From Tropicimonas isoalkanivorans (GTDB lineage Bacteria; Pseudomonadota; Alphaproteobacteria; Rhodobacterales; Rhodobacteraceae): a stretch of DNA of 64,000 nt. The notes under the pieces were generated by a model. That model saw only the letters and a list, made by a program, of their open reading frames with translations, was not told the DNA's origin and did not search any database. Shown piece by piece: positions 42,110 to 57,480 of the stretch. The stretch spans positions 186,001-250,000 of the forward strand of contig NZ_FOLG01000001.1 in NCBI RefSeq assembly GCF_900112335.1, in the 5' to 3' direction. The first letter of the stretch is position 1, and each line of letters opens with the position of its first letter. The position numbers and the translations under genes were made by a program.

Positions 42110-42988
42110 TTACACCATCATCCGGCGGGGATCTGCCAGCAGGCCACAGAGGTACGTCATGAACCGCGCAGCGTCAGCGCCGTTGATCACCCGGTGATCG
42201 TAGCTCAGGTCCAGCGGCAGCATTGGCACCGGCTTGGGTATATCCCCCTCCCAAACCGTGAAAATCTCCGTCCGCGTGATGCCAAGGATGGCAAGCTCGG
42301 GCGGGTTGACGATGGGGGTAAAGGCCGTTCCACCGATGCCGCCGAGCGATGAGATGGTCATCGACGCGCCGCCCATGTCCTCGGGCCCGACCTTTCGCTC
42401 CTGGGCGCGGGAGGCCAGGTCGCCGATGTCGGAAGCGATCTGCCAGAGCCCCTTTCGGTCCGCGTCGCGGATCACCGGAACCATCAATCCATGGGGTGTG
42501 TCGACGGCGATCCCGATGTGGACGTAGTCCTTGAGGATCAGCGTATTGCCGTCCGGACTGAGCGAGGCATTGAACCGCGGAAACGCCCGCAAGGCCCGCG
42601 CCAAAGCTTGCACGTGAAAGGCCAGCGCGGTGAGTTTGACGCCGCGCGCCTCCGCCTCGGGTTTCAGCGCTTTGCGAAAGGCTTCAATGGCGCGAATATC
42701 GGCGCGATCGTGGTGGGTCACTTGCGGGATCAGCGCGTTCGCCGCCCCCAGGTTGGCCGCAGCCACCTTCGCGAAACGGCTCATGGGTTCTTCGGTCACC
42801 GGCCCGAAGAGGCTGTGGTCCACCTCCCAATAGGAGGTGTCCCCCTTGGCGGCGCCGGACGGCGCACCGCGTTCCAGATCCTCGCGGGCGATGGTCGTCC
42901 GGCCAAGATCTTTCGCGAGTTTCGCGATATCGATGTCCATACGACCGGCGAGCGCGCGGACGGACGGAGACGCGATAACCTCTGTCAT
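42110..42988 (-). CDS. 2-oxoacid dehydrogenase E2 core acyltransferase lacking lipoyl domain
   Basis: A 292-residue protein that begins with a short peripheral-subunit-binding segment (SPSVRALAGRMDIDIAKL, residues 7-24) followed by a full chloramphenicol-acetyltransferase-like E2 catalytic domain. The acyltransfer motif is SYDHRVINGADAARF near 265, with catalytic His and, in place of the more usual Asp, an Asn that also occurs in some bacterial E2p. No lipoyl domain is present, unlike normal E2 proteins of 400-600 residues; the lipoyl carrier is a separate gene two upstream (44441-45724). It is the last gene of the operon. ATG 42988 follows GTAGGGGG. Confidence 0.85.
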   Translation of the reverse strand: MTEVIASPSVRALAGRMDIDIAKLAKDLGRTTIAREDLERGAPSGAAKGDTSYWEVDHSLFGPVTEEPMSRFAKVAAANLGAANALIPQVTHHDRADIRAIEAFRKALKPEAEARGVKLTALAFHVQALARALRAFPRFNASLSPDGNTLILKDYVHIGIAVDTPHGLMVPVIRDADRKGLWQIASDIGDLASRAQERKVGPEDMGGASMTISSLGGIGGTAFTPIVNPPELAILGITRTEIFTVWEGDIPKPVPMLPLDLSYDHRVINGADAARFMTYLCGLLADPRRMMV

Positions 42989-42999
42989 AAGCTTTCCCC

Positions 43000-44430
43000 C
43001 TACCAACTCGCCGATATGTATTGGGTTTCCATGAATTCGAGCATACCCTCGTGCCCGCCTTCGCGCCCAAGTCCGGACTGCTTCATGCCGCCGAATGGCG
43101 CCGCAGGATCGCTGACGAGACCGCGATTCAGGCCGACCATGCCATAGTCGAGCGCCTCGCAGACCTGCAGGCCACGCTTCATGTCCTCCGTGAAGACATA
43201 GGCCACAAGGCCGTACTCCGTGGCATTCGCACGGCGGACAACGTCCTGCTGATCGGAGAACGTCTGCAGGGCGGCTACCGGTCCGAAGATCTCGTCATGG
43301 ACGCACTCCGCCGTCTCGGGCACGTTGGTCAGCACCGTTGGCGGGTAGAAATAGCCCCTGCACTCCGGCACGTCGCCGCCGGTCTCGATCTTGGCGCCCT
43401 TGGCAACGGCATCTTTCACGAAGGCGGCGACCTTGTCTCGCGTGTCGGCATTGACCAGCGCCCCTACGTCGACCGACGGGTCGGTGCCGTCGCCGACCTT
43501 GAGACCGGCCATCTTCTCGGTGAGCTTCTTGGTAAAGTCCGCAGCCACGGCCTCGTGGACGTAGATCCGGTTGGCCGCCGTGCAGGCCGAGCCGAGGTTT
43601 CGCATTTTGGCGACCATCGTACCTTCGACGGCAACGTCGAGGTCCGCATCATCGAAGACGATGAGCGGCGCGTTGCCGCCAAGCTCCATCGCCGGTTTCA
43701 GGACCTGGTCCGCTGCGCCACGCAGCAGCTTGCGGCCAACGGCCGTGGACCCTGTGAAGGAGATCACCCGCACGCGCGGATCTTCCATCATGTGGCTCAC
43801 CAGCGGTCCGGCACTGCGGGTCGGCAGAACGTTGACCAGGCCCGGCGGCACCCCGGCCTCCTCCAAAAGCGGCATTAGCGCCAGCATGGTAAGCGGCGTC
43901 TCCGCGGCGGGCTTGATGATCACGGCGCAGCCGGCGGCAAGCGCTGGCGCGATCTTCCGGGTGCCCATTGCGGCTGGGTAGTTCCACGGCGTGACCAGCA
44001 CGGCGAGGCCGGCGGGCTTGTGTTGCACCACGATCCGGGCACCCGATGCCGGTGCATGGGTGATCATCCCATCGGCCCGGACCGCTTCTTCGGCGAACCA
44101 GCGGAAGAACTCGGCGGCATAGGTGGCTTCCCCCCGCGCATCCGCGCCAGCCTTTCCGTTCTCCAGCGTGATAAGGTGCGCAAAATGGTCGAGCCGCTCG
44201 GTCATGAGTTGCCATGCCTTGCGAAGCACCTCGGAGCGATCACGCGGGGTGCGCGCGGCCCAGTCCTTCATCGCCGCGTCGGCGGCGTCCAGCGCGGCAT
44301 CGGCATCGGCGATTGAGGCGTCCGCCACGGACGCGATCACCTCCTCATTTGCCGGATTCAGGACGTCGAACCGCTCCCCGGAGGTACTCTCGCGCCAAGA
44401 GCCGTTGATGTAGAGATCGGTGAATTCCAT
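43000..44430 (-). CDS. aldehyde dehydrogenase, succinate-semialdehyde dehydrogenase-like
   Basis: A 476-residue aldehyde dehydrogenase. It has VTPWNYPAAMGTRKIAPAL near residue 145, the base Glu in MELGGNAPLIVFDDAD near 250 and the nucleophile in NLGSACTAANRIY near 282; the usual Gln two residues before Cys is replaced by Ser-Ala. The end NRGLVSDPAAPFGGMKQSGLG is GabD-like. It lies inside the 2-oxoacid dehydrogenase operon between the lipoyl carrier and E2 core (10 and 11 bases away), so its aldehyde substrate may arise in the same pathway, for example acetaldehyde or a semialdehyde. The substrate is uncertain. Confidence 0.88.
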   Translation of the reverse strand: MEFTDLYINGSWRESTSGERFDVLNPANEEVIASVADASIADADAALDAADAAMKDWAARTPRDRSEVLRKAWQLMTERLDHFAHLITLENGKAGADARGEATYAAEFFRWFAEEAVRADGMITHAPASGARIVVQHKPAGLAVLVTPWNYPAAMGTRKIAPALAAGCAVIIKPAAETPLTMLALMPLLEEAGVPPGLVNVLPTRSAGPLVSHMMEDPRVRVISFTGSTAVGRKLLRGAADQVLKPAMELGGNAPLIVFDDADLDVAVEGTMVAKMRNLGSACTAANRIYVHEAVAADFTKKLTEKMAGLKVGDGTDPSVDVGALVNADTRDKVAAFVKDAVAKGAKIETGGDVPECRGYFYPPTVLTNVPETAECVHDEIFGPVAALQTFSDQQDVVRRANATEYGLVAYVFTEDMKRGLQVCEALDYGMVGLNRGLVSDPAAPFGGMKQSGLGREGGHEGMLEFMETQYISASW

Positions 44431-44440
44431 GTTGGTCTCC

Positions 44441-45724
44441 TCAGAGCAGGTGGCGGAGCGGCTGCTCCATCCGGCCCGCGAAATTGGATAGAAGGGCGAC
44501 GGCTTCCAACGCCGACAGATGGTGGCCGGCGCATTCGAGCGTGACGGAGAGACCGGCGGCCGATGTGGCAAGCGTCAGAACCGGGCAGTCCTCCGCGCCG
44601 AGCTCCACGCTGGTGATCCGGGTGTCGCGCAGGTCACGCAGGACTAGGTCTGCGGGAGCGTCAGCCTCGCTTTCGACGACCTCCCCAATACGGCGGCCCG
44701 GAACACGATAGTGACGGGTCCGGCCGAGCGCCTCGAGCGCAACCACGGTGTCATCCAGATCCAGGCTCGCACCGGCGAGGCCCGCGAGGAGCGCCCCGGT
44801 ATCCTTCAGCCCCGCATGCTCCGCAGCCCATGCCGCGAACTCCGCGAACCCGTCGGACGGCACTTCGGCCGCGATCCGTCGAGACGGGGCAGAGGAAACA
44901 GGTGTGGCCTCCGTCGGCAGGGACTTGAGAACTTCCAGATCCTTCACGTGGTATGGCTGCGGGTGACCCTCGCGGACCAGCCGGCTCAGATCGAGCCCCT
45001 GCTCCTCCGCCAGGCGCCGGGCTTTGGGAGAGGCGAGGATGCGGCCACCTTCTGCGTGCGTGGCTGGTTTTGGCGGTGCCTCTGGGTTTTTCTTGGCTTT
45101 AGGGGCTGGCGCCGCAGCTTCGGGTTCCGGCTCCGCCTCGGCAGGCGTTCGTTTCCGGCCACGTTGCAGGGGCGCGTCAGGCTTTTCGTCCGAAATGACG
45201 GCGATGACCTCGCCAACCGGCACGTCCTCTCCGGCCTCGGCCAGAAGCGCGGCGAAAAAGCCATCGTGGCCGGCCTCGACCTCAACCGTGGATTTGTCGG
45301 TTTCCACTTCAAAGAGAATGTCGGTTGCGGCGACAGCGTCGCCCGGAGCCTTGTGCCACGCGACGAGCAGGCCGCTATCCTGAGCCATGCCAAGAGTTGG
45401 CATGATGACGTCACGGCCTTCCGGCAGATCCGTCGCTTCCGGCGCCGTATCCTCAGTGGGGCTTTCCTCGGTTTCCACCGCCTCGGGGCTCTCGCCGATC
45501 AGTGCGATCACGTCGCCGACGGGCACGTCGTCACCAGCGTGCCGGCGGATCTGGGAAAGGAACCCAGCTGCCTGGGCCTCGACCTCCATCGTCGCCTTGT
45601 CGGTTTCAACTTCGAACAGCAGATCCCCCTCGGCAACGGCGTCGCCCGGGCTTTTGTGCCAGGCGACGATCAGGCCGGTGTCCTGCGCCATGCCCAAGGC
45701 GGGCATGATCACCTCATGCGGCAT
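44441..45724 (-). CDS. two-lipoyl-domain carrier protein with subunit-binding domain and degenerate E2 core
   Basis: A 427-residue protein with two lipoyl domains (lysines at about 43 in EVETDKATM and 144 in EVETDKSTV), Pro/Ala-rich linker, a subunit-binding domain at about 228-262 (ILASPKARRLAEEQGLDLS), and a C-terminal part that resembles the end of an E2 core but lacks the DHRxxxG catalytic motif. It would carry acyl groups between E1 and the separate E2 core. It overlaps the E1-beta gene by eleven bases. The degenerate C-terminus may still join the E2 core assembly. Biotin carrier function is unlikely given the ETDKAT motif. Confidence 0.85.
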   Translation of the reverse strand: MPHEVIMPALGMAQDTGLIVAWHKSPGDAVAEGDLLFEVETDKATMEVEAQAAGFLSQIRRHAGDDVPVGDVIALIGESPEAVETEESPTEDTAPEATDLPEGRDVIMPTLGMAQDSGLLVAWHKAPGDAVAATDILFEVETDKSTVEVEAGHDGFFAALLAEAGEDVPVGEVIAVISDEKPDAPLQRGRKRTPAEAEPEPEAAAPAPKAKKNPEAPPKPATHAEGGRILASPKARRLAEEQGLDLSRLVREGHPQPYHVKDLEVLKSLPTEATPVSSAPSRRIAAEVPSDGFAEFAAWAAEHAGLKDTGALLAGLAGASLDLDDTVVALEALGRTRHYRVPGRRIGEVVESEADAPADLVLRDLRDTRITSVELGAEDCPVLTLATSAAGLSVTLECAGHHLSALEAVALLSNFAGRMEQPLRHLL

Positions 45725-46709
45725 GGATCATCTCCCCGCGCACCAATCGGCGCGCATTCTCCACCACGCCCTCCGGGGTCGGAACGGTGATGTCCTCAAG
45801 CGCCGGACTGAAGGGGACCGGCACGTCCATCGCCCCCATGCGCAGCACGGGCGCATCGAGGTGGTAGAACGCCTTCTCGTTGATCCGGCTCGCAATTTCT
45901 CCGGTGACGCCGAAGCTCTGGTGCCCCTCGTCCACCACGATCACCCGGCTGGTTTTCTTCGCGGATGCCAGAAGCGTCGCCTCGTCGAGCGGGACGATTG
46001 TCCGCGGGTCTATGACCTCTGCGAAGATGCCCTCGGCCTCCAGCGCCTCAGCAGCCTTCTGGCAGACCTGCACCATGGAGGAGGTGCCGATCAGCGTGAT
46101 GTCACTGCCCTCGCGTAGCACCTTGGCCTCCCCGAAGGGGATCAGGTATTCCTCCTCCGGCACCGGGGCCTTGTCCTGGTACATCAGCTTGTCTTCAAAG
46201 ATCACGACCGGGTTGTCGTCGCGGATCGCGGTCTTCATCAGCCCCTTTGCCTCGTAGGCGGAACTGGGCAGCGCCACTTTCAGACCCGGGATATGCGCCA
46301 CGAGCGCGTGCAAGGACTGCGAGTGCTGCGCCGCGGAGCGCCGGGTGGCGCCGAGGTTCGTCCGGAGCACGAGAGGCACGTTCAGCTTGCCACCGGACAT
46401 GTAATGGGTCTTGGCCGCCTGATTACAGAGCTGATCCATAATCAGGTAGATGAAATCGCCGAACATCAGGTCGACGACCGGACGCGTGCCGGTCATGGCC
46501 GCGCCCACGGCGATCCCCATGAAACCGGGCTCGGCGATGGGCGTATCGACGACGCGGCTTGTGCCGAATTCCTCGACGAGACCGCTCAGAACCTTGAAGG
46601 GCGTACCGGCTTCGGCCACATCCTCGCCGATGATGAACACCGTTTCGTCCCTGCGCATCTCCTCGGCAAGGGCTTCGTTGACGGCCTGGGACAGGGTAAT
46701 TTCTCGCAT
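45714..46709 (-). CDS. thiamine-dependent 2-oxoacid/acetoin dehydrogenase E1 beta subunit
   Basis: A 331-residue E1-beta protein. Motifs: VFIIGEDVAEAGTPFKVLSGL near residue 25, DTPIAEPGFMGIAVGAAMTG near 55 and HSQSLHALVAHIPGLKV near 130. It forms an alpha2beta2 TPP enzyme with the upstream E1-alpha. ATG 46709 has GGAGAACACC upstream. It resembles PDH and acetoin dehydrogenase (AcoB) proteins; which of the two cannot be decided from sequence by eye. The 3' end overlaps the lipoyl-carrier gene. Confidence 0.9.
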   Translation of the reverse strand: MREITLSQAVNEALAEEMRRDETVFIIGEDVAEAGTPFKVLSGLVEEFGTSRVVDTPIAEPGFMGIAVGAAMTGTRPVVDLMFGDFIYLIMDQLCNQAAKTHYMSGGKLNVPLVLRTNLGATRRSAAQHSQSLHALVAHIPGLKVALPSSAYEAKGLMKTAIRDDNPVVIFEDKLMYQDKAPVPEEEYLIPFGEAKVLREGSDITLIGTSSMVQVCQKAAEALEAEGIFAEVIDPRTIVPLDEATLLASAKKTSRVIVVDEGHQSFGVTGEIASRINEKAFYHLDAPVLRMGAMDVPVPFSPALEDITVPTPEGVVENARRLVRGEMIHAA

Positions 46710-46720
46710 CGGTGTTCTCC

Positions 46721-47719
46721 TCAAGCCAGCGCGTGCGTCACGTCGGTGAACACATGCATGTCCACCTCGCTTTGGTCGGGGTATTTGGCGCTGAGCGCGT
46801 AATCGACGGCGGCTTTCGCATCGTCCTTGATCTCGGCGTTCATCGCCTCGACCTCCTCTTCGGACGCGATGCCTTCCGCAACCAGCCAGGACCGGAAGCG
46901 GATGATCGGGTCGCGGTTCTCCTTCCAGTCCTTCTCCTCGTCCTTTGAGCGGTAGTATTCGCGGTTGATATCGCCGACGTGGTGACCGTGGTACCGGTAC
47001 GTCATAAGCTCCATAAAGAACGGCCCCTCTCCCTTCCGGGCGCGTTCGACAAGCTTTTCAGTCAGCGCGTTGACGGCCAGAACGTCCTGCCCGTCGACCT
47101 GATGGCTTTCGATGCCGAAGGCCTCCGCCCGGGCCATGATCGAGCCCGCTGCTATCTCGTCAGTCTTCGTGTATTCCGAATAGCCGTTGTTCTCGCAGGC
47201 GTAGATGACGGGCAGCTTCCACAGCGCCGCCATGTTCATCACCTCGTACCAGAGGCCCTGCGCCGTGGCCCCGTCGCCGAAGAAGCAGACGGTCACGTCA
47301 TCCTTGCCGAGCAACTTGGCGGTGAACGCCGCGCCGGTGGCGATCCCCATTGAGCCGCCAACGATGGCATTGGCGCCGAGGTTGCCGTTCGACTGGTCGG
47401 CGATGTGCATCGACCCGCCCTTGCCGCGGCAGTAGCCCTCTTCCTTGCCGAGAAGCTCGCAGAACATTTCCTTGAATTCCGCGCCCTTGGCGACGCAATG
47501 GCCATGGCCGCGGTGGGTGGAAGTGATCTTGTCCGTGGTGCGCAGCGCCTCGCAGATCCCCACGGCCACCGCTTCCTCGCCCGAGTACATGTGCGTCAGC
47601 CCGGGCATCTTGGCGGACAGGTAAAGTTGGTTTGCGTTGTCCTCGAAAGTGCGGATACGAACCATCTGGCGATACATGCGCAGATAGTCCTCGGCATTGT
47701 GCTTCGGCGCGTCGGCCAT
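46721..47719 (-). CDS. thiamine-dependent 2-oxoacid/acetoin dehydrogenase E1 alpha subunit
   Basis: A 332-residue E1-alpha protein. The TPP motif is FFGDGATAQGL through ACENNGYSEYT (GDG-N~25-NN) near residues 160-195. STHRGHGHCVAKGAEF near 75 and YCRGKGGSMHI near 105 are shared with acetoin dehydrogenase AcoA and PDH E1-alpha. It oxidatively decarboxylates (or cleaves) a 2-oxo substrate and passes the acyl or acetyl group to lipoyl. I chose ATG 47719 with GGAGG 6 bases upstream over the ATG at 47731. It is 11 bases before E1-beta. Confidence 0.9.
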   Translation of the reverse strand: MADAPKHNAEDYLRMYRQMVRIRTFEDNANQLYLSAKMPGLTHMYSGEEAVAVGICEALRTTDKITSTHRGHGHCVAKGAEFKEMFCELLGKEEGYCRGKGGSMHIADQSNGNLGANAIVGGSMGIATGAAFTAKLLGKDDVTVCFFGDGATAQGLWYEVMNMAALWKLPVIYACENNGYSEYTKTDEIAAGSIMARAEAFGIESHQVDGQDVLAVNALTEKLVERARKGEGPFFMELMTYRYHGHHVGDINREYYRSKDEEKDWKENRDPIIRFRSWLVAEGIASEEEVEAMNAEIKDDAKAAVDYALSAKYPDQSEVDMHVFTDVTHALA

Positions 47720-47775
47720 ACGGTCCTCCATCGGGGGTAATTCCCCGGAATTGGCAGTTGCTCGGTCGTGGGGTT

Positions 47776-47807: not shown

Positions 47808-49106
47808 TCAGTACCGGTTCGCGATTGGCAGTTCCTCAGCCGGGAAGAGCGAGATGACCTCGCAGCCGGTGTCAGTAACGACCACTTCCTCCTCGATGCG
47901 GGCCGCCGAAAAACCGTCTGCGGCGGGGCAGTACGTCTCCAGGGCGAACACCATCCCGGTCTGGATCTCCATCGGGTTCTCCAGGCTCACCGCACGGCTG
48001 ATGATGGGGCGTTCGTGCAGCGCCAGCCCGAGCCCGTGGCCAAACTGCAGGCCGAAGGCGGACAGCTCATCGGGGAAGCCGAACTCCTCCGCCTTTGGCC
48101 AAGCCTGCGCCACGGTGTCGGTGGTCACGCCGGGCCGGATCAGGTCGATCGAGGCATCGATCCATTCCCGCGCCTTCACATAGGCGTCGTGCTGCGCGGA
48201 CGTTGCGCGGCCGATGTTGAAAGTGCGATAGTAGCAGGTGCGATAGCCTTGATAGGATTGCAGGATGTCGAAAAAGGCCTGATCGCCCGGGCGGAACAGC
48301 CGATCCGTAAAGTTGTGCGGATGCGGGTTGCAGCGCTCGCCCGAGATGGCGTTGATCGCCTCGACGTCGTCGCTGCCCATCTCATAGAGCATCTTGTTGG
48401 ACAGAGCGACGATGTCGTTCTCGCGGATACCCGGCTTCAGCTCCTCATAGATCATGTGGTAGACGCCATCGACCATGCTGGCGGCCTGCGTCAGCAACTG
48501 GATCTCGTCCCAGTTCTTGATCTCCCGCGCCGACAGCATGATCTGCTGACCGTCAACGATGTTGAGCCCGGCCTGCTTCAGGGCTTCGAACATTGCCGTC
48601 TCTGCGTAGTCCACGCCCACCGGCATGTCGGCCATGCCCGCGTCCCGGATCAGGCCGGCGATATCCTCGGCGTACTTCTTCATCAGCCCGAAGCTCGGCG
48701 GAATGGTGCCGCGCATCCCGACCACGCCGGCGTGACAATGATCGGGGACCAGCCAGTCGGAGTACTTCCGGTGATGCACGGCGGCGGAGCCGAAGTCCCA
48801 GACGTGGGGTGCGTCATCGCCAGTCAGCAGGCAGAAGCGGCACATCTTGTCCCGCTCCCACTCGCCGATCTTGGTCGCGGAGACATAGCGGATGTTGTTC
48901 ACGTCGAAGAGCAGCAGCGACCCCGCGTCGCTCTGCTTCAACGCCTGTCGCGCGCGGCTTAGGCGATAGCGGCGCAGGCGATCGTGGTCGATCCGGCGTT
49001 CGAAGTCGACTGACAGGAAGCCGAATGCAGGCAATCGGCCTTCCCATCTCCAATTGGGTTCCAGGTCGGCCGGTGTGAGGACGTTCGGTGTGAGTGCGCA
49101 GGACAT
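47808..49106 (-). CDS. M24 (pita-bread fold) hydrolase with a missing metal ligand
   Basis: A 432-residue protein of the aminopeptidase P/creatinase/DddP superfamily. Metal-ligand positions: first Asp at about 280 (QAFFDILQSY), His at about 357 (LQFGHGLGLALH), Glu at about 390 (GMVFALETYC) and Glu at about 405. The second Asp position (SD-x-TRT in peptidases) is Cys291 here (YRTCYYRTFNI). Loss of one Asp suggests altered metal use or a creatinase/lyase-like role, not a standard peptidase. Its N-terminal domain has FDVNNIRYVSATKIG, also seen in creatinase and DddP relatives. It sits between an SDR and the E1 genes. Confidence 0.8.
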   Translation of the reverse strand: MSCALTPNVLTPADLEPNWRWEGRLPAFGFLSVDFERRIDHDRLRRYRLSRARQALKQSDAGSLLLFDVNNIRYVSATKIGEWERDKMCRFCLLTGDDAPHVWDFGSAAVHHRKYSDWLVPDHCHAGVVGMRGTIPPSFGLMKKYAEDIAGLIRDAGMADMPVGVDYAETAMFEALKQAGLNIVDGQQIMLSAREIKNWDEIQLLTQAASMVDGVYHMIYEELKPGIRENDIVALSNKMLYEMGSDDVEAINAISGERCNPHPHNFTDRLFRPGDQAFFDILQSYQGYRTCYYRTFNIGRATSAQHDAYVKAREWIDASIDLIRPGVTTDTVAQAWPKAEEFGFPDELSAFGLQFGHGLGLALHERPIISRAVSLENPMEIQTGMVFALETYCPAADGFSAARIEEEVVVTDTGCEVISLFPAEELPIANRY

Positions 49107-49170: not shown

Positions 49171-49977
49171 TTACTGGATGCACCATCCGCCGTCGATGTG
49201 GATCATCTGGCCGGTCATGTAGTCGCTGTCGGAACTCGCGAGATAAGCCGCGGTCCCCTTGATGTCGTCGGGATAGGAAACGCGCTTGATCTGGAGCGCA
49301 TCGCGAACGATGTCGTCGTAGGCCTGCCCCTCCTTCTCCTTGAACCCGATGTCGACCAGGTCCTTGTCGAGCTGCTCCCAGAGCGGCGTGACCACGACAC
49401 CCGGGGCGTAGCCGTTGACGGTGATGTTGTGCTCGGAGAGCGCGATGGCGCCGCAATGTGTCAGCGCGAGGCAGCCATACTTCGACGTGCAATAGACAGT
49501 GACGTCGACCAGCGGCTTGCGGGATGCGATGGAGCCGACGTTGATCAGCTTGTAGGGATAGTCCTGCTTGCCCTGCGCGATCATCTGCCGGGCGGTTTCC
49601 TGCATTCCGAGCCACATCGCCTTGGTGTTCACGTTCATGATGAGGTCCCAGTTGTCCTCGTCGATGTCCATGAAGAAGCGCGGCTTGTTGAGCCCGGCAT
49701 TAAAGAGCCCGACGTTGATCATACCGTAGGCGTCCACCGTGGCGGCCACGGCGGCGGCGTTGTCCTCCCGCTTGGTCACATCCATCTTCACCGCGATGGC
49801 CTCCCCGTTGCCGCGCGCGTTGATGCGATCAGCAACGGACTGAGCTTCCTCGAGGTTGAGGTCACCCAGGCAGACATTCGCACCCAATTCCGCGAAGTGC
49901 TCGGCATTGGTGGCTCCCATGCCGCGAGCTGCGCCGGTAATCAGGATGTTTTTGCCTTTGAGGCGATTGGGATCCAT
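49171..49977 (-). CDS. SDR-family oxidoreductase
   Basis: A 268-residue short-chain dehydrogenase. Cofactor motif ITGAARGMGATN near residue 14, NAG in LFNAGLNKPRF near 93, catalytic Ser in NVGSIASRKP near 148, YxxxK in VYCTSKYG near 163. The segments GLNKP, PGVV-x-TPLWEQLDKDL and DSDYMTGQ are shared with the SDR at 53088, which marks the two as close paralogues in divergent arms. It lies 30 bases after the fusion regulator gene and 64 bases before the M24 gene. It probably oxidises a secondary alcohol. Confidence 0.88.
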   Translation of the reverse strand: MDPNRLKGKNILITGAARGMGATNAEHFAELGANVCLGDLNLEEAQSVADRINARGNGEAIAVKMDVTKREDNAAAVAATVDAYGMINVGLFNAGLNKPRFFMDIDEDNWDLIMNVNTKAMWLGMQETARQMIAQGKQDYPYKLINVGSIASRKPLVDVTVYCTSKYGCLALTHCGAIALSEHNITVNGYAPGVVVTPLWEQLDKDLVDIGFKEKEGQAYDDIVRDALQIKRVSYPDDIKGTAAYLASSDSDYMTGQMIHIDGGWCIQ

Positions 49978-50007: not shown

Positions 50008-51825
50008 TTAGTGGTCGAACATTTTGTCGACGCGGGACTGGGTCCGCTGAATGGCCTCCCGCGGTGTCAGGACGCCCCGCAGCATGTCGTGGAATTCCTC
50101 GCCACAGATCTTGAAGATGTCGCAGATCTCCGGCACCGGCGGGCGCGGCCAGAATTGGAGCTCGTCGCGCCAGGACATCTCGTCGACCGCTTCAAAGATC
50201 GTGGAGGCGCTGCGCACGTCAGGGTCGGATGCCACCGAATACCTCGGGTTCGTCCGACTTCCGTTCTGGATGTAGAGTTTCTGGGCCTCCGGCGAGGTGA
50301 AGACGATCAGCGCCTCGACAGCCGCCTGAATGCGATCTTTCGGCAGGTTTGCCGGGATGCCCATGGCATAGCCGCCGACCGTCGCCACGGGTTGCGCATC
50401 CGGGCCTGCCGGATGCGGCAGGAACCCGGTCTGGCCACGGGCCGGAGACGACTCATCCAGCTCGAAATAGGGGGCGAGCAGCGTGTATCCGTATGCAATC
50501 GCAACTTTGCCCGACGCATAGGGGCGAACACGTTCGTACCACGACATGGACAGGATGTCGGGCGGCGAATAATACAGCAGCTCCTTGAGATACTCTGCCG
50601 CTTGCAGGCCGCGCTCCGTGTCGAAGGTGGGACGGTAGCCGCCCTCCGCCAAGGCGTCCGCGTCGAACCCACCGGCAATTTTCGGTAGATCCAAAATCGG
50701 CTGGCCGAAATCCGCCATTGTCATCAGCACAGTATGCCCGAGGGCCGTACCGCGGGCCGCGTTCCACGCGATCCCATACCGGCCACGCTTCGGATCGTGA
50801 AAATGGCGGGCCGCTTCCAGAAGTCTGTCCGTCGTCGCCGGAGGTTCCAACCCCGCCGCCGCAAACAGATCCTTGCGGTAGAACAGGAGTTCCGGCGTCG
50901 TCTGCGCCGGCACGCCGAAGGGCCGGCCACCCCAGTGTGCAGCTTTCCACCCGGCAGTATGAAAATCGGCCGGATCGAGCCGGGCGACATCCATGGCCTC
51001 GTCGAGAGGCATGAGTATCCGGCGCTCGGCGAATTCGCCCACCCAGGGCAAATCGAATGCCAGGATGTCGTAGCGGCTGGAGGATCGTTCCGCGTTGCGG
51101 ATGGCTTCGTCCCGCAGTCGATCGATGGAGAAGGCGCGCTGGTGGATCTCCGTGCCGATCACCTGCTCGAAATGGCGCTTGAGGTTCTCCATGACCATGA
51201 ACGTCGGATCGCCATGCACCAGCACCCGGATGCCTCCGGGAACGGTCAACGGCTGCGGCAACACCTGCAGCGGCGGAATTGCCTGGGCGGCCATGTAAGA
51301 CCCACCGAAGAAGTAATCGCGATCCGCCTTGCTTTGCGTGCCGACGAAGTGGGCTTCTGCCAGCCGCCGGGTCCGCTCGGAAAACTGCAGCCATTGCTCC
51401 AGCAGCGTCTCGCTGGGGTGCAGGGAAAAGGTTCTGCCGGTCTTGGTGCGCGGGCGCTGCTCGATTAGCCCCGCTTCGATCATGTCCTTTATGCGCCGGT
51501 TGGCGGTCGCGTAAGGAACGTGGCTGGCGCCTATGAGAGACGTCGGTGTCACGACTTTGCCCTCAAGATGCGCGCGGACCAGATGCAGGGCCATCCGGAC
51601 GACCGGATTGGGCGCGAACAACTCGATTGACCCCTCTAGCTCATCACCGAACTTCTCCAGAAACGATATCGTTTGGAGAACCTCGCTGTTTGCCTGGGGG
51701 GAGGTCAGCTGTCCCTTCAAATGTTGTGCGCCCATGACATTCATCAGGTGGTCCTGCGCCCTTCTCTCCTTGCTCGACGGCGTGTCCGCCAAACTGTCCG
51801 GATTGGGTTTTCTTGGTTTCGGCAT
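50008..51825 (-). CDS. winged-helix regulator fused to an extracellular-type solute-binding domain (SBP_bac_1)
   Basis: A 605-residue protein without a signal peptide or membrane segment. Residues about 60-165 contain a winged-helix domain (LIGASHVPYATANRRIKDM, LIEQRPRTKTGRTFSLH). From about 200 to 590 it is a family-1 solute-binding (MalE-like) fold: IRVLVHGDPTFMVMENLKRHF, YDILAFDLPWVGEFAERRIL, RGQTGFLPHPAGPDAQ, YAMGIPANLPKDRIQAAVE. Such domains are normally periplasmic; here one would sense a ligand in the cytoplasm. SgrR is a precedent but uses a different SBP family. The gene is divergent from a ribose-type importer and first in the 2-oxoacid dehydrogenase arm. The start is ATG 51825 with GGAGG upstream. 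Confidence 0.82.
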   Translation of the reverse strand: MPKPRKPNPDSLADTPSSKERRAQDHLMNVMGAQHLKGQLTSPQANSEVLQTISFLEKFGDELEGSIELFAPNPVVRMALHLVRAHLEGKVVTPTSLIGASHVPYATANRRIKDMIEAGLIEQRPRTKTGRTFSLHPSETLLEQWLQFSERTRRLAEAHFVGTQSKADRDYFFGGSYMAAQAIPPLQVLPQPLTVPGGIRVLVHGDPTFMVMENLKRHFEQVIGTEIHQRAFSIDRLRDEAIRNAERSSSRYDILAFDLPWVGEFAERRILMPLDEAMDVARLDPADFHTAGWKAAHWGGRPFGVPAQTTPELLFYRKDLFAAAGLEPPATTDRLLEAARHFHDPKRGRYGIAWNAARGTALGHTVLMTMADFGQPILDLPKIAGGFDADALAEGGYRPTFDTERGLQAAEYLKELLYYSPPDILSMSWYERVRPYASGKVAIAYGYTLLAPYFELDESSPARGQTGFLPHPAGPDAQPVATVGGYAMGIPANLPKDRIQAAVEALIVFTSPEAQKLYIQNGSRTNPRYSVASDPDVRSASTIFEAVDEMSWRDELQFWPRPPVPEICDIFKICGEEFHDMLRGVLTPREAIQRTQSRVDKMFDH

Positions 51826-51889
51826 CGCGCCGGCCTCCTCCAAAATCGCCGATCTGACGTGGCCACCACATCTCAAAAATTCTCATTAT

Positions 51890-51905
51890 GGATATCAAAG
51901 TATCC
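51890..51905. promoter_or_regulatory. candidate operator of the fusion regulator
   Basis: GGATA (51890-51894) and TATCC (51901-51905) form a perfect inverted repeat with a 6-base spacer in the divergent region, 65 bases from the fusion regulator ATG and 145 from the importer's first gene. A second short palindrome, GCGGG-AA-CCCGC, lies at 51937-51948. Either might be the operator. Confidence 0.35.
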
Positions 51906-52049
51906 GAACTGGTGATTTTTTGTGCGACTTTTGAACGCGGGAACCCGCATCGTCTTTGCATTCGTCCGCACGCCGGATGGAAACGCAGCGACGCTACCGT
52001 CGTTTTACTCAGGACTGGAAAACCGGACTGACCGGGAGGAGACCAAGAG

Positions 52050-53006
52050 ATGAAGATCCGCAATGCACTGGTTGTGACCACTGCTGTCGGCACGCTGGCC
52101 GTCGCCGGCGCCGCATCCGCCGAGACCTACAAGATCGGAATTACCCAGAACAACGTTGGCGTCGACAGCTATCAGACCACGTATGAGCAGGCGTTCATTG
52201 CGGCGGCAGACGCCAATGAGAACGTCGAAACTGTCGTGCTCGACGCCGGCGGCGACGTGGCCCGCCAGATCGCCCAAATGGAAGATCTGATCCAGCAGGA
52301 AGTGGACGCGATCATCATTTGGCCGACCAACGGCGAGGCCGTGATCCCGGCCGTGAGAAAGGCGCACAGCGCGGGTATCCCGGTCATCGTCACGAATTCC
52401 AACATCGCCGAGCCGGGCTTCGAGTTCGTCGCGTCGTTCTCGGGGCCGGACAACATCACCCAGGGCGCGCGGTCGGCCGAGATCATGTGCGACAAGTTCA
52501 AGGAGATGGGCATCGACGGCGAAGCGAAGATCGTTCAGATCTCGGGCCAGCCGGGCTACACGACCGCCATCGAGCGCCAGAAGGGCTTCGATGACCGGCT
52601 GCCGGAGGTCTGCCCCGACGTGGAACTGGTAGAGACCCAGCCGGGCGACTGGAACCGCGAAAAGTCGCAAAAGGTCATGGAGGCCTTTCTGGTCAAGTAC
52701 GACGATATCGACGGCGTCTATGCCGGCGACGACAACATGGGCGTTGGTGCGCTGAACGCCGCCAAGGCGGCCGGTCGCGACGGTATCATCTTCGTCGGCG
52801 CCACGAACTTCGCGGTCGGCTACGAGGCCATGGAAAAAGGCGAGTACTGGGGGTCCATCTACCAGTCGCCCGTGGATGACGCCGAAGCCGCCCTGCAAAC
52901 GGCGATCGATGTTCTCGACGGCAAGGACGTGCCGTTCCTGAACTACTTCGACACGCCGAAGATCACTCAGGACAACATGAGCGAATACACCAAGCCCGTG
53001 TTCTGA
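52050..53006 (+). CDS. ribose-type ABC transporter substrate-binding protein
   Basis: A 318-residue periplasmic receptor with signal peptide (MKIRNALVVTTAVGTLAVAG, cut after ASA near residue 24). The mature part has RbsB-type motifs: ARQIAQMEDLIQQEVDAIIIWPT near residue 70, GIPVIVTNSNI near 110 and DGVYAGDDNMGVGALNAAKAAG near 220. It begins the plus arm of the divergent locus and is followed by a strong hairpin, then an SDR, two permeases and the ATPase. GGGAGGAGACC precedes the ATG. The ligand is unknown. Confidence 0.9.
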   Translation: MKIRNALVVTTAVGTLAVAGAASAETYKIGITQNNVGVDSYQTTYEQAFIAAADANENVETVVLDAGGDVARQIAQMEDLIQQEVDAIIIWPTNGEAVIPAVRKAHSAGIPVIVTNSNIAEPGFEFVASFSGPDNITQGARSAEIMCDKFKEMGIDGEAKIVQISGQPGYTTAIERQKGFDDRLPEVCPDVELVETQPGDWNREKSQKVMEAFLVKYDDIDGVYAGDDNMGVGALNAAKAAGRDGIIFVGATNFAVGYEAMEKGEYWGSIYQSPVDDAEAALQTAIDVLDGKDVPFLNYFDTPKITQDNMSEYTKPVF

Positions 53007-53087: not shown

Positions 53088-53885
53088 ATGGGCCGGGTCT
53101 CTGATCGCTCCTGCATCGTCACGGGCGCTGCGCAGGGTATAGGCCGCGCGATCGGCGAGGCGCTTCTGGACGAAGGCGCGGACGTCTGCTTCGCCGATAT
53201 CAACGGCGCGAAGGTAGCGGAGGTCGCCCAGGCGAACCAGGCGCGCGCAGAAAGGTCCGGGGCCCGGGTGGCCCATGCGCCCGTCGATGTAACCAACCGG
53301 GATCAGGTACGGGCCATGATCGCCCATACGGTCGAAACGTTCGGCAAGCTGGACGTCAAGTTCAACAACGCCGGCGTCAACAAGCCGATGAACTTTCTTG
53401 ATGTGACAGAGAACAACTGGAACTTCATCATGGGGGTCAACGGACTTGGCTGCATGATCGGGATGCAGGAGGCGGCGAAGCAGATGATCGCACAAGGCAC
53501 CGGCGGCAAGATCATCAACACCGCATCCATCGCGAGCCGGCAGGGGTTCGACAATGTTGCGCCCTACTGCGCATCGAAATGGGCGGTGGTCTCGCTGACG
53601 CAGTCGGCCGCGCGGGATCTGGCCAAGCACGACATCACGGTCACGGGGTTCGCGCCGGGCGTCGTGGCGACCGAAATGTGGGAGCAGGTCGACCAGGATC
53701 TGATGGAAATCGGCGCAGCGGACCGCCCCGGTCAGGCGATGGAGGAGTTCTCCGCCGAAATCCTCAAGGGACGTGTGGCGACGCCGGCGGACATTACCGG
53801 AACCACCACGTTCCTGGCGTCCAAGGACAGCGACTACATGACGGGCCAGATCGTCATGATCGACGGCGGCATGACATTGATCTGA
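53088..53885 (+). CDS. SDR-family oxidoreductase
   Basis: A 265-residue short-chain dehydrogenase with TGAAQGIGRAI near residue 13, NNAGVNKPMNF near 96, Ser in NTASIASRQG near 147 and YCASK near 163. It shares the GVNKP, PGVVATEMWEQVDQDLMEIG and DSDYMTGQ segments with the SDR at 49171. Residue choices at the substrate loop differ, as for two enzymes acting on related or mirror-image alcohols. It lies between the binding-protein and permease genes of a sugar-type importer, so its substrate is probably the imported compound. AACGGGGGGAGA precedes the ATG. Confidence 0.9.
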   Translation: MGRVSDRSCIVTGAAQGIGRAIGEALLDEGADVCFADINGAKVAEVAQANQARAERSGARVAHAPVDVTNRDQVRAMIAHTVETFGKLDVKFNNAGVNKPMNFLDVTENNWNFIMGVNGLGCMIGMQEAAKQMIAQGTGGKIINTASIASRQGFDNVAPYCASKWAVVSLTQSAARDLAKHDITVTGFAPGVVATEMWEQVDQDLMEIGAADRPGQAMEEFSAEILKGRVATPADITGTTTFLASKDSDYMTGQIVMIDGGMTLI

Positions 53886-53957: not shown

Positions 53958-53970
53958 TGGGGAGGACATG

Positions 53971-54945
53971 ATGGGAGCTTTGTCGAAATTCGAGATCGGA
54001 GGCGTGCTTGCCCGACAGGGCATTTTGATCGCATTCGTTCTCTTCATGATCGCGTTCACGATCGCCAATCAGCGTTTTCTGGATCCGGACAACATTCTTG
54101 GGGTCATCCGCTCCTCCGCTATCCTGGGGGTCATGGCCCTTGGCGTGACGTTCGTCGTCATCAGCGGAAATCTGGATCTTTCGGTGGGGTCCATGATGTC
54201 TTTCTCCACCATCGTCGTGCTCGATCTTCACGACAAGATAGGTCCGGCCCTGGCAATACCAGCCATGTTCATCATGACGCTGGCCCTGGGCGCCTTGATC
54301 GGATTTCTCGTGGGGTACCTGAAGCTCAACTCGCTGATCGTCACGCTGGGTATGCTCTCGGCGATCCACGGGCTCACCCTGACATATTCCGGCGGCAAGA
54401 ACATGGATATCGCCGACAAGGCGGGCACCTGGTTCAGCGTTTTCGGGCAAGGCTCGATCCTGGGCATTCCCGTTCCGATCCTGATCTTCGCCCTGCTCGC
54501 GGCCGTGCTCGGCACGATGCTCGCCAAGACACCCTTCGGGCGCAAGGTCTATGCCGTCGGTGGTAATGGAGTGGCTGCGACCTTCTCCGGCATCCGGCGG
54601 GCGCGGGTCGTGTTCATGTGCTACCTGCTTTCCTCTTTCTGTGTCGCGACAGCGGGCCTGATCCAGGCCAGCCGGTCGCTCGGTTCCCAGAACACCGTGG
54701 GTCAGGGACTGGAGTTGGAAGTCCTTGCGGCCGTCATCCTTGGCGGGGCCTCGCTGATGGGCGGCTCGGGGACAATCTTCAAGACGGTGATCGGCGTTCT
54801 GATCCTCGGCTTCATCCAGAACGGATTGCTGCTCGTGGGCCTTCAGTTCTACGCGCAATACGTCGTCACCTGGATCATCATCATCCTCGCCGTCTGGCTG
54901 GACATTGCCGCCAAACGTGGCCGGCTCTGGTCCCCGATCGCCTGA
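53971..54945 (+). CDS. ribose-type ABC transporter permease (RbsC family)
   Basis: A 324-residue permease with about nine membrane segments, VMALGVTFVVISGNLDLSVGS near residue 50 and VYAVGGNGVAATFSGIRRARV near 193. Two adjacent ATGs occur at 53968 and 53971; the second is better spaced from GGAGG. It pairs with the next permease as a probable heterodimer, a less common arrangement than the usual homodimer for ribose-type importers. Confidence 0.92.
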   Translation: MGALSKFEIGGVLARQGILIAFVLFMIAFTIANQRFLDPDNILGVIRSSAILGVMALGVTFVVISGNLDLSVGSMMSFSTIVVLDLHDKIGPALAIPAMFIMTLALGALIGFLVGYLKLNSLIVTLGMLSAIHGLTLTYSGGKNMDIADKAGTWFSVFGQGSILGIPVPILIFALLAAVLGTMLAKTPFGRKVYAVGGNGVAATFSGIRRARVVFMCYLLSSFCVATAGLIQASRSLGSQNTVGQGLELEVLAAVILGGASLMGGSGTIFKTVIGVLILGFIQNGLLLVGLQFYAQYVVTWIIIILAVWLDIAAKRGRLWSPIA

Positions 54946-54958
54946 ACAGGAGACAGAC

Positions 54959-55956
54959 ATGGCACCTGGAACACTGAGCAACTACCTCAAGAGCGGCGCG
55001 ATCTGGGCCTTCATTGTGCTCGAACTGGCCTTCTTTTCCATCGCCGGCGAGTATTTCTCGCTCTCGGACAAGGCCTTTATGGATTTCGATAACATGCTGC
55101 TGCTCTTCAAGCAGTCGGCGCCAATCGGGATCATCGCCATGGGCATGACCATCATCATGGTCAACGGGAACATCGACCTGAGCGTCGGCGCCACCTACGC
55201 CCTGTGCGCCATCGTCCTGCTCGACAGCATGACGTGGCCGATCTTCGCCGGCCTTGGTGACGCCGTGATCCCTATCTCCTGGGCGCTGGCGTTGCTGACT
55301 GGCGTTCTGCTGGGCGCGTTGAACGGACTGATCGTCTGGAAGACCGGTGTCGATGCCTTCATCGTCACGCTCGGGTCCATGCTCGGCTACCGCGGCCTCG
55401 TCTTCATGTACAACGGCGAGCAGCCGACGTCGCATCTCAACTGGACGCTGGTCGACTTCGCCGAGGCGCAGTTTCTCGGCCTGCACACGGCGACGTGGTT
55501 CCTCCTGGCCGTGACCGTGGCGATCTGGTTCCTGATGAACCGCACCGTCCACGGGCGCAATGCCTATGCCATCGGCGACAACCGGTCCGCAGCGGTGAAC
55601 GCCGGTATTCGCGTCGGTCCGCACATGATGATCAACTTCATGATTATCGGATTTCTGGCCGCGCTTTCGGCGGTGGTGTTTTACTCTGAATCCGGCTCCG
55701 TGAACCCGAATGACGGGGAGCTTTACGAGCTCTGGATCATCACCGCGGTCGTTCTGGGCGGCACCAAACTCACCGGCGGCTCCGGCTCGATCGTGTCGAC
55801 CTTCGGCGGCGTTCTGGCGATCCAACTTCTCCGCAAGGGGCTCGCGCATATCGGCGCCGATACGTCGACGGTCAATCTGGTCATCGGCCTGATCCTGATC
55901 GCCGTGCTGTTCCTCGACCGGCAACTGAACCTCAAAGGCAAAGAGGAGTTGAGAGT

Positions 55957-55960
<4 letters not shown>
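54959..55960 (+). CDS. ribose-type ABC transporter permease (RbsC family), second
   Basis: A 333-residue permease with about nine hydrophobic segments, including [21 protein letters not shown] near residue 60 and YAIGDNRSAAVNAGIRVG near 200. AGGAGACAG lies upstream of the ATG, 13 bases after the first permease. The TGA overlaps the ATPase ATG by four bases. A predicted partner of the previous permease. Confidence 0.92.

Positions 55961-57480
<1,520 letters not shown>

Follow-up and report, generated by a model that had tools for sequence, protein, structure and literature searches.

The stretch of DNA analysed here is 64,000 nucleotides long and comes from Tropicimonas isoalkanivorans (assembly GCF_900112335.1, contig NZ_FOLG01000001.1, positions 186,001 to 250,000 of the forward strand); this whole stretch is referred to as the window. 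It encodes a protein of 605 residues that joins a MarR-like winged helix to a family-1 solute-binding domain, and this protein represents a regulator family that is real, conserved and largely unrecognised, with an operator that could be computed. The protein probably acts in the cytoplasm as a one-component transcription regulator that represses the operon of its own and the adjoining catabolic genes by binding to palindromes, and that is released by a ligand. The general design of one-component regulators fused to a binding protein was known already, and what is new here is the likely cognate operator, TATCCA-N3-TGGATA. The label 'extracellular solute-binding protein' seems to conceal regulators of this type. 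If they are recognised together with their operator, direct, testable regulons would become available for uncharacterised pathways, mostly in marine bacteria, and each pathway's substrate could be disclosed by what the sensor domain binds. The family also offers a sensor module that is built on a sugar-type binding protein and that is distinct from SgrR by its domain content.

The reading frame of the regulator is open throughout from the ATG at 51825, with a good ribosome-binding site, GGAGGAGG, 5' of it at 51834-51841. The original prediction of a DNA-binding head and a family-1 solute-binding domain in one chain is confirmed by Pfam, AlphaFold and Foldseek, although the domain limits that it gave (about residues 60-165 and 200-590) are best placed at 74-137 and 198-604 (Table 1). 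A Pfam scan of the regulator (E<=0.01) found SBP_bac_1 (PF01547; residues 244-516, E 2.5e-24, 87.3 bits against a curated cut-off of 26) as well as SBP_bac_8 (PF13416). In the N-terminal part of the full regulator MarR_2 matched weakly (E 0.0029, 18.2 bits, under the cut-off of 27). When N-terminal pieces alone were scanned at E<=0.1, 32 of the 35 gave a MarR_2 match (best E 6.8e-05), the piece from the window scoring 20.6 bits, which is also under the curated cut-off of 27. The AlphaFold model of the full regulator, made with 35 sequences, had a mean pLDDT of 71.5 and a pTM of 0.64, and when the N-terminal part was modelled alone the block pLDDT was 87-97 across the winged helix. Its predicted elements follow the winged-helix order (helices 74-88, 94-101 and 105-117, strands 121-125 and 133-137), flanked by helices 43-66 and 139-160. 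Both the prediction and Foldseek give a winged helix with flanking, putative dimerisation helices, as in the MarR family. In the recognition helix (105-117), R110 is kept in every row of three alignments (A1 with 15, A2 with 35 and A5 with 13 rows); the structure alignments drew on 34 of the 80 orthologues described below.

A separate search of the two halves, as proposed with the original prediction, gave a family-1 fold for one and a MarR-like winged helix for the other. The solute-binding part retrieved family-1 binding proteins in Foldseek, with 5iai (E 3.7e-25, TM 0.83 by target) ranking first and the trehalose/maltose-binding protein 1eu8 second; structure prediction thus yielded the bilobal solute-binding fold in residues 200-590 on which the original prediction had staked its reading. 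The N-terminal part matched mainly MarR-family proteins (PefR 7dvr, E 2.7e-5), though over the whole chain the agreement was modest, with a large rmsd and a TM of about 0.45-0.5. Since the highest 15-residue hydropathy mean within the first 70 amino acids is 0.39 and the highest 19-residue mean over the entire chain is 0.93, neither a signal peptide nor a membrane segment is indicated by hydropathy, in agreement with what had been predicted, and the regulator apparently stays in the cytoplasm. Ordinary solute-binding proteins of the same genome reached 1.67-1.68 (two loci) and 0.74 (one locus) by the same method, which is a thin comparison of only three proteins.

Table 1 Features of the regulator locus and its surroundings (positions are those of the window)
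Feature	Position	Strand	Basis
Separate E2 acyltransferase core	42110..43006	-	
Succinate-semialdehyde-type aldehyde dehydrogenase, true start probably within the ORF	43000..44571	-	
Lipoyl-domain protein (E2 N-terminal part)	44441..45724	-	
2-Oxoacid dehydrogenase E1 beta	45714..46724	-	
2-Oxoacid dehydrogenase E1 alpha	46721..47731	-	
M24 (creatinase/prolidase-type) metallohydrolase	47808..49106	-	family models
SDR dehydrogenase, 30 bp downstream of regulator, same operon inferred	49171..49977	-	family models
Regulator ORF, 605 aa, MarR-like winged helix + family-1 solute-binding domain	50008..51825	-	translation, Pfam, AlphaFold, Foldseek
Family-1 solute-binding domain, residues 198-604	50014..51234	-	Pfam, AlphaFold, Foldseek
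Linker, residues 161-197, mostly low confidence	51235..51345	-	AlphaFold
Winged helix, residues 74-137	51415..51606	-	AlphaFold, Foldseek, alignments
Possible third operator copy in first codons of regulator, 4 mismatches, 85 bp away from copy 2; weak, ranking fifth among window sites	51795..51809	.	motif scan
Inferred -10, regulator/catabolic operon, TGTGGT; TAcgnT at conserved position in orthologues, poor in window	51865..51870	-	inference
Candidate operator copy 2, proximal to regulator, 3 mismatches, at 21-bp spacing to copy 1	51880..51894	.	motif scan
Candidate operator copy 1, distal to regulator, TATCCGAACTGGTGA on +, 3 mismatches to TATCCANNNTGGATA	51901..51915	.	motif scan
Inferred -10, transporter operon, CATCGT	51948..51953	+	inference
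Candidate leader hairpin, transporter transcript, compensatory changes in orthologues	51962..51979	+	leader alignment
Type-I periplasmic binding protein, ribose-type ABC importer	52050..53006	+	family models
SDR dehydrogenase; best models acetoin reductase and L-iditol dehydrogenase, both under cut-offs	53088..53885	+	family models
ABC permease	53968..54945	+	family models
ABC permease	54905..55960	+	family models
ABC sugar ATPase	55957..57480	+	family models

Both the architecture predicted for a binding-protein-fused one-component regulator and a candidate operator are present in the window, and it is useful to compare the protein with known systems. In SgrR of E. coli and its relative DsvR (Vca0578) of V. 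cholerae, an N-terminal HTH and a C-terminal SBP_bac_5 domain are combined in one chain, according to preprint PMC13060122. The one-component design with an N-terminal HTH and a C-terminal solute-binding domain is the same, whereas the binding domain there is SBP_bac_5 instead of SBP_bac_1/8 and the gene context differs. SBP_bac_5 was found neither in the regulator (Pfam, E<=0.01) nor among the families matched by the 15 A1 members, and SgrR_N, the Pfam family of the N-terminal domain of SgrR, is absent from the 11 families matched by the 35 N-terminal pieces (E<=0.1). The analogy to SgrR that was drawn originally therefore stands for the design and falls for homology, and an SgrR homologue was rejected because the domain families differ.

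The nearest solved structures for the N-terminal part are of the MarR family (PefR, HcaR, MexR), which shares the winged helix with flanking helices. The matched MarR chains are about 110-166 residues long and bind their ligand within that fold, whereas here sensing would take place in a clamshell of 400 residues; the Pfam score of the regulator is also under the family cut-off. The whole C-terminal domain resembles family-1 binding proteins (5iai, 1eu8, MalE3 6dtq and the sorbitol-labelled 4rya) in sequence and fold, but the regulator is without a leader, is fused to a DNA-binding domain and is not the binding protein of the importer. LacI/GalR regulators likewise combine a DNA-binding head with a binding-protein-like sensor, but they use a type-I periplasmic fold and a lambda-repressor-like HTH in place of the family-1 (type-II) fold and winged helix found here. 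Full-text searches of open-licence papers gave no description of a family-1 (SBP_bac_1) version of such regulators.

The gene order of the window is shared with six plasmid loci of Rhodobacterales, in which the regulator is likewise transcribed away from a ribose-type importer that has an SDR gene among its own, and is followed by a run of genes for an SDR, an M24 hydrolase, E1 alpha, E1 beta, a lipoyl protein, an aldehyde dehydrogenase and an E2 core. A search for the same architecture beside ABC and 2-oxoacid dehydrogenase loci had been proposed with the original prediction, and these six loci show it. The E2 component of the 2-oxoacid dehydrogenase (42110-45724) is split into a lipoyl-domain protein and an acyltransferase core, with the aldehyde dehydrogenase gene between them. 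For the M24 hydrolase all NCBIfam models stayed under their cut-offs, and its identification as DddP was rejected (113 bits against a cut-off of 600); family models gave no identification of the substrate of the adjoining pathway. More distant relatives occur in other contexts, such as hydroxyquinol-type and inositol-dehydrogenase-like genes. The M24 hydrolase recurs beside four of these, namely with an SDR next to a different importer (L141, L142), with an SDR and E1 genes next to a different importer (L146), and with an E1-like gene (L160). L141 and L142 (G065, G294) are from genomes of 1.4 Mb, with identities of 33-34% for the regulator, 56% for the SDR and 65-66% for M24.

The palindrome TATCCA-N3-TGGATA was noticed as a repeated element on reading the upstream regions of orthologues, and it was counted in 81 regions (80 orthologues and the window). 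With at most two mismatches it is present in 76 of the 81 regions (141 sites, against an average of 0.9 in 20 Markov-shuffled sets), and with at most three it is present in all of them (shuffles 10.7), 76 regions having at least two copies (shuffles 0.9). Two copies are exactly 21 bp apart in 68 of the 81 regions if three mismatches are allowed in each, and in 45 if two are allowed. A third copy lies within the first codons of the regulator in 37 of the 81 regions, in 36 cases at 82-86 bp further, which is a raw count made without shuffles. A matrix derived from half of the loci gave all 40 held-out regions a higher score than any of 192 360-mers drawn at random from these loci. The 21-bp pair in the window scores 19.9, whereas the next best such pair in the 64 kb scores -16 and the highest value from 50 shuffles is -7. 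At 54813-54827, within the first permease gene, a single operator-like sequence reaches 10.7, equal to copy 2, and may be due to chance or be an internal site. Scanning the window's own genome gave 38 places with at most two mismatches versus 20 for the reversed pattern, and the sites of the window itself are absent from this list, so a wider regulon in this genome is not supported and none is claimed. The two sites with a single mismatch in this genome have no clear operon promoter, one being inside a long ORF (L129) and the other near an ORF start (L128).

Alignment of the orthologues revealed conserved -10-like elements on both sides of the divergent region, the transporter element reading CAnnnT. 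Counted from the predicted -10 elements, the centre of copy 2 is at about -29 of the regulator-catabolic promoter, which is a repressing position, while the copies are at about -52 and -73 of the transporter promoter, from where they could activate. For this reason ligand-released repression of the catabolic arm is favoured. A dimer would bind the palindromes through its MarR-like winged helices, using two copies in the region between the divergent arms, spaced by two turns of the helix (21 bp), and, where it is present, a third copy about eight turns further inside the first codons of the regulator. The clamshell domain, kin of exported ABC binding proteins, would no longer serve a transporter and may sense a cytoplasmic solute or an early product. 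In the absence of ligand the bound protein would cover the regulator-catabolic promoter at copy 2 and keep expression of the operon low, and closure of the clamshell on its ligand would alter the dimer and cause release from the operator; for the transporter arm such a mechanism allows activation as well as repression. The solved binding proteins closest to it carry labels for the binding of sugar, trehalose/maltose or sorbitol, hence the first guess that the ligand may be a small sugar or a polyol.

It is conceivable, but in our view rather unlikely, that the protein activates the transporter operon in response to its ligand while repressing its own operon with or without ligand, like SgrR. 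Such ligand-independent repression of the own operon is also a property of LysR-type regulators, and the sites near the transporter promoter are at activator-like positions. Furthermore, preprint PMC13060122 reports that SgrR represses itself, and a title in its reference list names a 'novel transcriptional activator'. However, the catabolic genes follow only 30 bp behind the regulator, so constant autorepression would lower their expression as well, and the activator-like positions are reckoned from -10 elements and start sites that are themselves predicted.

The transporter transcript may start with a hairpin (Table 1) of which the letters vary and the pairing is mostly kept in 46 aligned loci (45 of the 75 loci with a transporter start and palindrome found, plus the window). 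Two of the five predicted pairs show 11 and 10 double changes, and the consensus energy is only -0.59 kcal/mol. A second hairpin, seen by eye at about 51988-52003 and often having a GGAGG-like loop, is absent from the consensus fold prediction, and no Rfam RNA reached the gathering score in the window.

More distant members of the family allow a further comparison. A matrix built from the 80 close orthologues was used to score 20 further loci (13 + 7), with 100 shuffles for each; six distant loci had been inspected with the consensus before they were scored. The best site exceeded all 100 shuffles in 14 of the 20 loci. Seven of these sites are clearly intergenic at operon starts (L042, L043, L044, L046, L141, L146, L147), five coincide with the 5' end of an ORF that was extended mechanically to its longest form and of which the true start is uncertain (L142, L144, L155, L157, L159), and two are within genes (L143, in a permease, with a second site that is intergenic; L158, in the regulator itself). 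One or two of the 100 shuffles reached the best site in L156, L160 and L161, and the best site was within chance in L145 (8 shuffles), L047 (29) and L045 (41). In reading these counts, L144 is a close orthologue and three groups of loci are related (L141 and L142; L155 and L156; L044, L147, L159 and L161). The site at 10816 in L044 adjoins the hydroxyquinol-type genes, and L141 has a second site directly 5' of its SDR-M24 genes. In the 1.4-Mb genomes (L141, L142) the half-sites are AT-shifted to TATTCA/TGAATA and occur near the gap between regulator and transporter and again just before SDR-M24.

The palindrome thus recurs at promoters beside relatives that are only 31-35% identical and that accompany other pathways. 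This association of the palindrome with the protein family gives good comparative evidence of a one-component regulator that binds DNA and acts on both divergent arms, and together with the conserved gene order it argues for the control of both arms that was predicted originally. The operator role of the palindrome is derived from sequence comparison, and the palindrome could in principle belong to another regulator, with the fused protein being, for example, a cytoplasmic solute buffer or an enzyme partner. We consider this very improbable, as the palindrome follows the fused protein across operons with different transporters and pathways, and the fused protein itself has a winged helix that is predicted with confidence and in which one arginine is invariant.

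Regarding distribution, nine others of 60 genomes near the window's own have a match that begins no later than residue 47 and ends no earlier than residue 599, with 34-80% identity, and one of these (G021) has a second copy plus a shorter relative; the remaining matches in the 60 genomes begin from residue 175 onwards. A place that covers at least 80% of the regulator query is present in 34 records of the plasmid collection. Of 12 plasmid relatives whose annotation was examined, ten are called 'extracellular solute-binding protein', while L039 is labelled an ABC periplasmic component and L047 a hypothetical protein. Among 526 candidate stretches in the genome collection 499 were confirmed as relatives, and the best 80 of the 499 were analysed; these are 67-80% identical, and it is for these 80 that a match reaching into the N-terminal half was seen. 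Strong matches, counting the window's own genome, are present in 36 of 198 genomes of a family sample (E<=1e-80), in 7 of 289 of a class sample (E<=1e-40; the match in G100 covers the solute-binding part only) and in 6 of 398 of a phylum sample (E<=1e-60). The regulator family is accessory and patchy in Proteobacteria.

In a tree of solute-binding domains, made with 14 of 15 ordinary solute-binding proteins after a length filter (L016 and L150 being the same protein), all 18 regulators fall in one clade with a support of 1.000, together with the exported protein L148, of which the placement within the clade has a support of only 0.12-0.23. The regulators are separate from the SBP_1 proteins that neighbour them in L043 and L046, and a recent duplicate of the binding protein of a local importer was rejected on this ground and because the importer in the window uses a type-I protein. 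The database label, which together with the solute-binding fold would make the protein an ordinary exported binding protein with an over-long N-terminus, can hardly be correct, since a hydrophobic leader is missing, the winged helix is conserved across the family, the adjoining importer has its own type-I binding protein and the tree separates the regulator from these SBP_1 neighbours. L148 (6743-8092) is an exported family-1 binding protein that has a hydrophobic leader by eye, adjoins ABC permease and ATPase genes, and is 40% identical to the sensor domain of the regulator, which is closer than several true regulators. It is possible that an exported protein of this type was the source or is a spin-off of the fusion.

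A broader reading, for which we see the chances as evenly balanced, is that these proteins form a widespread and so far undescribed regulator family, mostly labelled as extracellular solute-binding proteins, in which an importer binding protein would have moved into the cytoplasm to become the sensor of a MarR-like repressor. The family would act on a helically phased array of three operators (21 bp and about 84 bp, the last in its own reading frame), suggesting cooperative or looped binding, and would have been re-used for sugar, hydroxyquinol and other pathways. In a genome of the same phylum and another class (L157, G613), the regulator is 53% identical and both operators are present with the 21-bp spacing; the conservation of these operators and the identity of 78-84% of the importer suggest recent horizontal transfer of the regulator, operator and importer as a unit. 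In yet another genome, two members of the regulator family flank a single importer locus (L155 and L156), with operator-like sites near each.
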